This document shows positions 18,996 through 21,659 of a stretch of DNA of 64,000 bases, piece by piece. The stretch spans positions 62,001 through 126,000 of the forward strand of contig NZ_JACSQF010000004.1 of NCBI RefSeq assembly GCF_014836755.1. Direction: 5' to 3'. Position 1 is the stretch's first letter. Every line of letters begins with the position of its first letter. The notes below the pieces were generated by a model. That model saw only the letters and a list, made by a program, of their open reading frames with translations. It searched no databases and had not been told where the DNA came from. The translations under genes were made by a program, and so were the position numbers. This DNA is from Oerskovia merdavium. GTDB lineage: Bacteria > Actinomycetota > Actinomycetes > Actinomycetales > Cellulomonadaceae.

Positions 18996-19787
18996 TCAGC
19001 CGACGCGGACGAACGTCGGGTTGTTCTGCCAGATCTTGCTGTACTTGACGGTGCTGCCCGGGGTCGTGGCCTCGATCTGCATGCCGTTGCCGGCGTAGAT
19101 CGCGACGTGACCGGGCGTCCAGATGATGTCGCCGGGTCGGGCTTCGGAAGCCGAGACCGCGGTGCCCGCGTTCCGCTGCGCGCCGGACTGGTGCGGGAGC
19201 GAGACGCCGAGCTGTCCGTACACGTACTGGACCAGGCCCGAGCAGTCGAAGCCGCTGGGCGAGGAGCCGCCGTACACGTAGGGCACGCCCACGTACTTCA
19301 TGGCGATGTCGACGACCGACGAGCCGGAGGCCGCGGGCGCCGGGGCTGCGGCCTGGACCGTCTGCGTCGCGGCGGGCGTCGCACGCTCGACCGAGCGCGA
19401 GGCTGCGGCGGCGCGCTGCGGTGCAGGGGCGGGGGCCGGCTCGGGCTCGGGCTCCGGCGCGGGGGTGACCGCGACGGGGGCCTGCTCGATCGCGAGCGCC
19501 GCGTCGGCGGCGACCGTGACGACGGGGCTGGTCTGCAGTGCTTCGCGGGCCTGAGCGGTGACGGCAGCGAGGTCGACCGTGCCGACCGACGTCTTCGCCT
19601 GGTCGGTCGAGGGGGCTGCGTTCGCCGGGGCCGTGAAGACCGAGATCAGCAGACCCGACGACGCCGCGACGACGGCGCTGCGACGGGCGACGGAGCTGAC
19701 GCTCGACGCGGCGGAGCGCCCGAGCGACGTCAAGGGGGTGATGGGGCGGTGCGCAGCACGGTGGCGCGCGGAAGGACGTGAGGTCAC
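18996..19787 (-). CDS. Secreted NlpC/P60 cell-wall hydrolase
   Basis: A 263-residue peptidoglycan endopeptidase. The long basic N-terminus with a hydrophobic run ending VFTAPANAA (about 36-58) is a signal peptide. A Pro/Glu/Ala linker follows. The catalytic domain starts near 155: Cys182 in GFDCSGLVQYVY, His227 in TPGHVAIYAG, and a polar third residue in GNGMQIEA. NlpC/P60 enzymes cut gamma-D-Glu-diaminoacyl bonds in stem peptides. The GTG at 19787 has AGGAG adjoining the P1 helix of the upstream c-di-AMP aptamer, so expression should fall when c-di-AMP rises. Confidence 0.92.
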   Translation of the reverse strand: MTSRPSARHRAAHRPITPLTSLGRSAASSVSSVARRSAVVAASSGLLISVFTAPANAAPSTDQAKTSVGTVDLAAVTAQAREALQTSPVVTVAADAALAIEQAPVAVTPAPEPEPEPAPAPAPQRAAAASRSVERATPAATQTVQAAAPAPAASGSSVVDIAMKYVGVPYVYGGSSPSGFDCSGLVQYVYGQLGVSLPHQSGAQRNAGTAVSASEARPGDIIWTPGHVAIYAGNGMQIEATTPGSTVKYSKIWQNNPTFVRVG

Positions 19788-19799
19788 GAGTGTTCTCCT

Positions 19800-19976
19800 G
19801 GACGCCTGAGAGGTCAGCTGTCGGGTTCGGGTCGGAGAAGCTCTACCCGGCCGTGCGGACCGAGGTCCGTGCGGCTTCACCCCAAGGACACCGTCACCGG
19901 TGCCCACAAGAATGGGTCCCCCACCCCTGTCATGGGTGTAGTTCGTGGCCTCGGGAGGTGACAGGGTTCGGCGTCC
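19800..19976 (-). promoter_or_regulatory. Cyclic di-AMP (ydaO/yuaA) riboswitch
   Basis: Read on the minus strand, the leader shows the conserved blocks of the c-di-AMP aptamer in order: GCCGAACCCTGTCACC, GGTGGGGGACCC, CTTGGGGTGAAGCCG, GGGTAGAGCTTCTCC, ACCCGAACCCGACAGCTGAC. The terminal P1 helix is GGACGCC (19970-19976) paired with GGCGTCC (19800-19806). The ribosome binding site AGGAG follows P1 directly. In actinobacteria this class sits before rpf and NlpC/P60 genes and acts as an off-switch. The remaining leader 19977-20154 has no gene. Confidence 0.92.
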
Positions 19977-20154
19977 ACCCGAGGGCTCCGGCGAGAAGGT
20001 TCTCTGCGAAGCAGAATCGACGGTACATGGCAAGCGACGGATTGTCACAGTGAGGTAACGAACTCCGCGAGTCGGACATCGATCCCTTTCGACGACGAAC
20101 CGCACCTTCCACGGGAGGGCGCGGCCCGCCGTCAGGCACCTCGGGACACCCGCT

Positions 20155-20445
20155 TCAGGCGGGCTTGGTCGCCTTGCCGTCCAACCACAAGGTGTCCGAC
20201 TCGTCCCGGTGCGTACCGGTGGACCCGACGTGCTTGCTGTCGATCGTGGGGCCCTTCTTGATGACGTGGACGAGCGCCATCGCGTGTCCGCGACCCAGGT
20301 CGTAGTCCTCCTTGAGCCATTCCACGATCACGCCCGCCTTGACCGACGGGTCGTCGTAGCCCTTCTCCTGCGCGATCGTCAGGAGCTCCCGCGGAGTCAG
20401 CCCTGTCTTGTCCTCGATGGTGTCCAGGTACGCCTGAAAAGACAT
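20155..20445 (-). CDS. DUF4287-domain small protein
   Basis: A 96-residue soluble protein. SFQAYLDTIEDKTGLTPRELLTIAQEKG and GVIVEWLKEDYDLGRGHAMALVHVIKKG match the DUF4287 family, usually found alone or with DUF5655. It is all-helical and of unknown function. ATG 20445 has GAGGACC upstream. The flanking genes are an unrelated HTH protein and the NlpC leader, so context gives no role. Confidence 0.8.
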   Translation of the reverse strand: MSFQAYLDTIEDKTGLTPRELLTIAQEKGYDDPSVKAGVIVEWLKEDYDLGRGHAMALVHVIKKGPTIDSKHVGSTGTHRDESDTLWLDGKATKPA

Positions 20446-20518: not shown

Positions 20519-20803
20519 TCAGGACGGTGCACCCTCTGGTCGGTGTCGCACGCGCCGCGCGACCCAGCCGCGCTGCGCGGCCAGGACCCCCGCCTGGAAG
20601 CGGCTCGTCGCACCGAGCACCTGGAAGAGCGTCGCCACGTGCCGACGGCACGTGCGGACGCCGATGCCGAGGCGACCGGCGATGGCCTCGTCCGTGAGCC
20701 CCGCGCTCAACCCCGACAGGATCGAGACCTGCACCGTCGTCAGCACCGACCGGCCCCCGTCCTGGGGCGTCCCGACGATCTCCGACAGCTCCCTGTCGAC
20801 CAT
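20519..20803 (-). CDS. Small LuxR-type helix-turn-helix protein
   Basis: A 94-residue protein consisting almost only of a LuxR/GerE HTH: VQVSILSGLSAGLTDEAIAGRLGIGVRTCRRHVATLFQVLGATSRFQAGVLAAQRGW. No receiver or sensor domain is present, as in orphan LuxR-like regulators of actinobacteria. ATG 20803 follows a G-rich stretch (AAGGGGGG). A perfect 16-bp palindrome, GCTACCGGCCGGTAGC, lies 48 bp upstream and is a candidate autoregulatory operator. Confidence 0.8.
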   Translation of the reverse strand: MVDRELSEIVGTPQDGGRSVLTTVQVSILSGLSAGLTDEAIAGRLGIGVRTCRRHVATLFQVLGATSRFQAGVLAAQRGWVARRVRHRPEGAPS

Positions 20804-20897: not shown

Positions 20898-21512
20898 CTA
20901 CCGCCCGAGCAGCCCGTCGATCTCGGCCATCTCCGCCGTCTGCACGTCGACCATCTGCTGCGCGAGGTCCTGGAGGTCGGTGTACCCACCGTCCGCGATC
21001 TCGCCCTGCGTCATCGCGATCGCGCCCTCGTGGTGCGAGTGCATGAGCTCGAGGAACGTCTTCTCGGCCTCGGCCACGGCGGTCGCGTCCCCCTCGCTCG
21101 CGTCCGCGAGGCGTTCGAGCGACCCCATCTGGTCGCCCGTCAGCATGCCGTTCGCGACGTGCACCGAGTGCATCTGCATGAGGTCGTCCTGCCCCCAGGC
21201 GTCGGCCCAGCCGCGCATGGTCGCGATCTCCTCGGCCTGCCCGTCGAGGATCCGCTGCGCGAGGTCGCGCGTCGGGTCGCTCACGCCGTCGACGGCCAGG
21301 ATGATCTCGCTCATCTCGACGGCCTGCTCGTGGTGCGGGGTCATCATCGCGAGGAAGTGCAGGTCCGTGTCGTTCACCTCGGCCGGGGCGGCGCCGTCCG
21401 AGGCGGCCGACGAGACCGGCGCCTGCGCCTGGGGCGCTTCGCCGCCGGTCGAGCACCCCGCGAGGGCAGCGGTCACGACGAGCGCGGTGAGGACGGCGGG
21501 CAGCTTCTTCAT
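20898..21512 (-). CDS. DUF305 lipoprotein
   Basis: A 204-residue lipoprotein with lipobox LAGC (Cys at about 20). The DUF305 ferritin-like fold is recognisable by paired motifs MMTPHHEQAVEMSEIIL and LMHSHHEGAIAMTQGEI, each giving a His-His-Glu metal set. DUF305 proteins are often linked to copper handling, though some bind other metals. ATG 21512 follows GGAG. No copper genes adjoin it, so the metal is an inference. Confidence 0.88.
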   Translation of the reverse strand: MKKLPAVLTALVVTAALAGCSTGGEAPQAQAPVSSAASDGAAPAEVNDTDLHFLAMMTPHHEQAVEMSEIILAVDGVSDPTRDLAQRILDGQAEEIATMRGWADAWGQDDLMQMHSVHVANGMLTGDQMGSLERLADASEGDATAVAEAEKTFLELMHSHHEGAIAMTQGEIADGGYTDLQDLAQQMVDVQTAEMAEIDGLLGR

Positions 21513-21659
21513 GAGGACTCCGGTGTGTCTCGGGATCGCCGGGGCACGCGGGCGCCGGACCGGCGAGCGTCCGAGCAGCGTAGGTGCCGAGTCTGGGAGT
21601 CGGCTGTGCATCGCGGGGAGGCGAGCCCCGCGCATCCGCGGACGGGGCCGGTCGCGGCC

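Follow-up and report, generated by a model that had tools for sequence, protein, structure and literature searches.

A c-di-AMP riboswitch exerting translational OFF control on the nlpC gene was reported in 2023 for Corynebacterium glutamicum (PMC9960051). In that organism, the fluorescence of an nlpC reporter drops with functional disA or in a delta-pdeA background, the reporter transcript shows no response to c-di-AMP and a second, downstream reporter is unaffected (PMC9960051). The riboswitch sequence reduces the amount of transcript irrespective of c-di-AMP (PMC9960051). This element, RSnlpC, is a ydaO-class aptamer with no canonical terminator described, its control is given as OFF and likely translational, and a CTCC-GGAG pseudoknot was suggested for it, in the consulted part without a comparative or mutational test (PMC9960051). 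The promoter region contains an MtrA site, and repression of nlpC by MtrA is reported (PMC9960051).

Other members of the class are described as working differently. The rpfA riboswitches of S. coelicolor and S. venezuelae also precede a wall hydrolase gene that is repressed by c-di-AMP, again with no canonical terminator described, but transcription termination was reported for the Streptomyces switch in vitro (PMC10117811, PMC9960051). The ydaO/kimA riboswitch of B. subtilis has the same aptamer class and the same OFF sign and acts via a terminator (PMC9960051). Both transcriptional and translational models are in print for the wall-hydrolase riboswitches of actinobacteria. In the crystallised ydaO RNA (PDB 4QLM/4QLN), a structure of the aptamer alone, the loop CUCCUUCG is complementary to CGAAGGAG following helix P1, and this pseudoknot is called stable (PMC5393176). 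Furthermore, a review has already listed ydaO with those riboswitches in which the aptamer, once ligand is bound, docks onto the ribosome-binding site and conceals it; in the preQ1-III and cobalamin representatives, which have other ligands and other folds, a loop of the ligand-bound RNA takes this site by long-range pairing (PMC10907184, in a section with no actinobacterial comparison).

Here, we describe a c-di-AMP riboswitch upstream of an NlpC/P60 gene in a stretch of 64,000 nt from Oerskovia merdavium, termed the window. The arrangement resembles that of RSnlpC, which belongs to a different family and is compared here by description. The initial annotation had read the conserved blocks of a ydaO aptamer in order and named a covariance search as a check, with a missing hit counting against it. 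The Rfam covariance-model search returned RF00379 on the minus strand (19953-19788), scoring 57.8 bits against a gathering cut-off of 38 (E 8.5e-11), as the sole match at gathering level within the 64-kb window. The features of the locus are as follows.

19800-19976, minus strand: c-di-AMP (ydaO/yuaA) aptamer from P1 to P1, from the RF00379 match with its 5' end corrected by P1/P2 pairing
19970-19976, minus strand: 5' strand of P1, GGACGCC, which a possible U19977-A19799 pair would extend
19959-19966, minus strand: P2 5' strand CCCTGTCA, from sequence
19925-19932, minus strand: P2 3' strand TGACAGGG, from sequence
19829-19848, minus strand: hairpin GGGT...ACCC bearing the pseudoknot loop, from sequence
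19834-19839, minus strand: UUCUCC, the loop strand of the pseudoknot and complement of the Shine-Dalgarno (SD) sequence, from sequence
19810-19825, minus strand: conserved aptamer core CCCGACAGCTGACCTC, from sequence comparison
19800-19806, minus strand: P1 3' strand GGCGTCC, from sequence
19793-19798, minus strand: SD GGAGAA, the proposed 3' strand of the pseudoknot; the SD reads A19799 GGAG
19785-19787, minus strand: start codon GTG, at the same position in relatives
18996-19787, minus strand: NlpC/P60 protein of 263 aa (PF00877, 86.2 bits, E 1.8e-24)
20044-20059, minus strand: MtrA-like direct repeat GTTAC-N6-GTGAC (GTTACCTCACTGTGAC), near the MtrA consensus and upstream of the leader

Aptamer, P1, SD and gene thus lie on the same strand, which the initial annotation had left unnamed, and its interval, 19800-19976, excludes the SD and the start codon. 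The blocks GGGGGACCC, GGGGTGAA and CCCGAACCCGACAGCTGACCTC follow each other in order and are closed by P1. One aptamer-helix pair is non-canonical, a U-U at about 19923 and 19809 on the minus strand, which is common to the same-genus loci L080 and L084; at the corresponding position, L001 has C-G and L006 has U-A. Counted from the start of P1, the Rfam alignment sets in 23 nt further downstream; it slides past P1 and P2 and misplaces both. As the 7-bp P1 is not captured in this way, the Rfam placement of P1 and P2 was not adopted. The P1 of the initial annotation is the better one, since its 5' strand is followed by GAA and then by the 8-bp P2 with a long loop. Both P1 strands occur as single copies on the minus strand of the searched region 19600-20300. 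As annotated before, AGGAG directly adjoins the closing helix; a 7-nt spacer and the GTG beginning at 19787 come next.

The target had been named as an NlpC/P60 hydrolase, in agreement with the PF00877 score (cut-off 23). The domain is C-terminal and contains the motifs FDCSG and GHVAIY. The protein is related to NlpC/P60 peptidases of solved structure and, with the N-terminus judged by eye, is probably secreted. Upstream neighbours on the same strand encode a DUF4287 protein (20155-20445), a small LuxR-type HTH protein (20519-20803) and a DUF305 protein (20898-21635). A diadenylate cyclase domain (92 bits) is encoded in the same genome, which elsewhere carries a second RF00379 copy, L001 (67.7 bits), with its own NlpC/P60 gene.

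We consider it probable that this element is an OFF riboswitch for c-di-AMP which acts on translation, a pseudoknot between an aptamer loop and the SD withholding the ribosome-binding site of the NlpC/P60 gene. On binding to the window copy, the ligand would stabilise the folded aptamer, in which P1 closes and the last hairpin loop, UUCUCC, pairs with the bases following P1. As these bases, GGAGAA, are the SD itself, high c-di-AMP would withhold the ribosome-binding site of the hydrolase gene. Low c-di-AMP would free the SD, the 30S subunit competing for it when no ligand is bound. The OFF sign is assigned by analogy to the C. glutamicum nlpC riboswitch, which also makes translation the likely level of control and the best reading; restraint of wall cutting would be the physiological reason.

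For comparison, related loci were collected at several distances. RF00379 was found in all 61 sampled genomes of the family Cellulomonadaceae, in 112 of 148 genomes of the class (111 above the cut-off) and in 22 of 119 of a phylum-wide sample, the samples overlapping. Extraction by regular expression gave 132 family loci, 131 after the aptamer filter; L002, a duplicate of the window, was dropped. The class and phylum samples provided 117 loci, 60 of them hand-picked among the matches listed, and 110 rows passed the filters (91 from the same class, 19 from other classes of the phylum; some loci gave no row and one gave two). A contrast set from other phyla as judged by record title, at least 117 loci obtained with one exact pattern, retained 74 rows. 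Starts were called as the first ATG, GTG or TTG with an SD-like word and an open reading frame spanning 90 codons or more, the minimum being 60 codons for frames that ran off the available sequence.

In 125 of the 131 family loci, no more than 35 nt separate the called start from the conserved ACCUC block. This near-start set leaves out four loci without a called start and two with a distant one; inspection by eye showed an SD-like word in all six, with an ATG or GTG close by. A simple pattern detected the NlpC/P60 motif in 122 of the 125, and the products of the other three end NlpC-like by eye. Starts within 60 nt were found, among the matches listed, in 81/91 loci of the rest of the class, 4/19 of other phylum classes and 26/74 of the contrast set. 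Nine genomes (L043, L062, L065, L068, L073, L075, L076, L104 and L109) have pairs of c-di-AMP riboswitches about 1.2 kb apart, each of which, from the pattern tally, apparently precedes its own NlpC/P60-type gene. Outside the actinobacteria, as judged by record title, four genes that are NlpC/P60 by motif (L157, L207, L261, L238) have near-start c-di-AMP riboswitches.

Evidence comes from the pairing between loop and SD. In the window, six pairs join UUCUCC (19839-19834) to GGAGAA (19798-19793). By sequence, this corresponds to the pseudoknot between the loop and the bases after P1 in the solved ydaO RNA of T. tengcongensis. The pairing score of each locus was compared with scores after 300 exchanges of strands between loci, the loci having been thinned by shared 6-mers and still not being independent. 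Own strands scored 13.84 against 13.02 +- 0.23 for swapped strands in the family (n=82) and, among the matches listed, 14.6 against 11.91 +- 0.28 in other loci of the class (n=77), 16.42 against 13.08 +- 0.62 in other phylum classes (n=19) and 14.36 against 10.75 +- 0.28 in the contrast set (n=69). In no group did any of the 300 swaps attain the own score; two control segments taken from these RNAs scored 9.0-10.4. The margin is smallest in the family, the group with the least sequence variation. Pairing of these strands by chance therefore seems unlikely.

In addition, the two strands change together. Among the 125 near-start family loci, 106 combine a GGAG-type SD with a CUCC or CUUCC loop and ten a GAGG-type SD with CCUC or CCUU. 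Four more GAGG loci have an ACCUCC loop, which contains both words and pairs best as ACCUC/GAGGU, so that all 14 GAGG loci show loops of the ACCUC or ACCUU type. For the association of SD class with loop class, the Fisher test gives 8.6e-12 over the first 120 family loci, kinship ignored. The five remaining GGAG loci (L009, L038, L106, L108, L122) are unclassed, each with 7-8 pair matches including G-U. Flanking pairs covary as well in GAGG loci (GUACCUC/GAGGUAC, GAACCUC/GAGGUUC, AUACCUC/GAGGUAU), and in four cases both classes occur within one genome (L006 and L100, L066 and L107, L124 and L060, L118 and L071), L118 having just four loop-SD pairs. SD and pseudoknot strand overlap in 123 of the 125 loci, and in 116 the strand includes the SD core. 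Further away, among the matches listed, overlap was found in 49/80 other near-start loci of the class (30 miss, 1 weak), 2/4 of other phylum classes and 17/23 of the contrast set (4 miss, 2 weak). The conserved and covarying contact of the SD is thus the hairpin loop, i.e. the pseudoknot of the aptamer.

The initial annotation had tied access to the SD to P1. Of this, the adjacency stands, and the remainder was the weak part. Among the 131 family loci, 128 yielded a P1. Pairs 1-4 hardly vary and are therefore little informative; pairs 5-8 are present in 72, 55, 72 and 52 of the 128 loci, where independent columns would give 66.0, 55.6, 69.5 and 47.2. As covariation beyond 4 bp is not clear in these loci, P1 was rejected as a conserved lock of the SD. 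It is still conceivable that a ligand-stabilised P1, adjoining the SD and overlapping it by one base, blocks the ribosome and renders the pseudoknot unnecessary: in a loose search with some doubtful 5' strands, the distance from the end of P1 to the first SD base was between -2 and +7 nt for 132/132 family loci, and P1 in the window reaches 8 bp if the A of AGGAG is counted. Eight contiguous pairs occur in only six of the 128 loci, however, namely the window, two loci of its genus (L080, L084) and three of a different genus (L077, L087, L090), and the contiguous P1 comprises 4-5 bp in 95. With the nearly general overlap of SD and pseudoknot strand in the family, this makes a block by P1 alone unlikely, and P1 is probably not the key to SD control, which would be better placed on the pseudoknot; both helices may also act jointly. 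A hairpin of the P1 3' strand with the spacer between SD and start was searched for as well and not seen in the family (mean rank 0.577, 119 loci); elsewhere in the class there is a mild excess, with 15/76 loci below 0.1 among the matches listed. In five loci of other actinomycetes (L295, L297, L313, L360, L292), the P1 3' strand (GGCGG or GTAGGCG) can pair with bases located between SD and start, and the resulting placement of the SD in a loop is a possible alternative platform.

The second alternative concerns transcription, namely attenuation without a canonical terminator through pausing, RNAP-specific or Rho termination. It can draw on the in vitro termination reported for Streptomyces rpfA (PMC10117811; discussed in PMC9960051) and on the c-di-AMP-independent lowering of transcript in C. 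glutamicum (PMC9960051), and silenced translation could add Rho polarity. As the initial annotation had stated for the segment between P1 and start, we found no terminator-like site within 19500-20300 and no G+C hairpin with a U-run before the start codon in the window. By a rough rule of our own, such sites likewise occur in 0/125 near-start and 0/2 far loci of the family. Under the same rule and among the matches listed, they occur in 4/81 near and 0/6 far loci of the class, 0/4 near and 3/11 far loci of other phylum classes, and 2/26 near and 15/39 far loci of the contrast set, the latter with long leaders. The distance from core to start in the family has a median of 23 nt (127 called starts) and is therefore too short for a terminator/antiterminator. 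Moreover, the C. glutamicum reporter transcript was unresponsive to c-di-AMP (PMC9960051). Attenuation is accordingly judged quite improbable here, and the translational platform favoured by the initial annotation gains support: by sequence comparison, the SD lies in a helix of the folded aptamer and no terminator accompanies it.

Folding calculations are less favourable to the proposed OFF switch. With RNAfold (nested structures, neither ligand nor pseudoknots), the probability of P1 is 0.27 for the shortest leader and drops to 0 when coding sequence is included; in the latter fold, the SD pairs with spacer bases 19788-19790 or coding bases 19770-19773, and its exposure without ligand is therefore not predicted. 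The pseudoknot duplex amounts to -6.6 kcal/mol bare and -8.6 with flanks, and the duplex of SD and anti-SD to -7.4 kcal/mol (with an assumed anti-SD tail sequence); such similar strengths would suit a switch and prove nothing. Predicted pairing of this kind, together with the U-U mismatch, could also point to an aptamer copy that is degenerate or constitutive, or to an ON switch in which spacer or coding bases otherwise occupy the SD. Against this, the conserved blocks are otherwise present, SD and loop are retained in L080 and L084, and the C. glutamicum homologue is an OFF switch (PMC9960051), so that we regard this last possibility as hardly credible. Several points nevertheless count against translational OFF control by the pseudoknot: besides the ligand-free fold without a free SD and the U-U pair, the pseudoknot is short, the strand misses the SD in 30 of 80 near-start class loci among the matches listed, termination is reported for Streptomyces rpfA (PMC10117811), and in C. 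glutamicum the riboswitch sequence lowers transcript independently of c-di-AMP (PMC9960051). Because the pseudoknot strand does not reach the SD in some loci of the class, such genes may differ.

The promoter side shows a second conserved element. Within 240 nt upstream, GTNAC-N6-GTNAC occurs exactly in 81/131 family loci and with at most one mismatch in 124/131, compared with 0.4 and 9.6 in shuffled upstream regions; any other spacing from 0 to 15 nt is seen in at most three family loci each, and downstream control stretches have no exact repeat (0/131). Among the matches listed, the rest of the class has 14/89 exact and 38/89 with at most one mismatch (shuffles 0.2 and 5.6), and the contrast set 0/70 and 3/70. 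The genome of the window encodes MtrA (390.9 bits, cut-off 300) and, among the matches listed, contains 37 matches of GTNAC-N6-GTGAC at 35 places, including both riboswitch promoters, and one of the reversed pattern. The repeat in the window is near the S. coelicolor consensus, the third base of its first half being T versus G or A there (PMC5650626). It is thus a candidate, MtrA-like site at 20059-20044.

The mode of control proposed here is not new in kind. The initial annotation rightly called it less studied for this class, yet it had already been reported (PMC9960051); what is new is the comparative evidence for the pairing and the MtrA-like repeat upstream. The comparative data fit the CTCC-GGAG proposal for C. 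glutamicum, and the pseudoknot would replace P1 as the main lock. They provide a model testable at the level of single bases, with six pairs and compensatory swaps, of how c-di-AMP would restrain wall-cutting enzymes in actinobacteria. In a broader and more tentative reading, to which we give slightly less than even chances, sensor and platform are fused as a rule in the family and partly in the Actinomycetes: the SD of the wall hydrolase gene would be the 3' strand of the pseudoknot and co-evolve with the loop, leaving no separate expression platform. If true, a double lock would result, with MtrA at the promoter and c-di-AMP at the ribosome; blocked translation would come first, and the termination described for some copies from actinobacteria would be its consequence. 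The data suggest that the SD sequences of such genes are constrained by the aptamer, and the MtrA-like repeat beside nearly all family copies suggests that these genes routinely integrate two envelope or osmotic signals.
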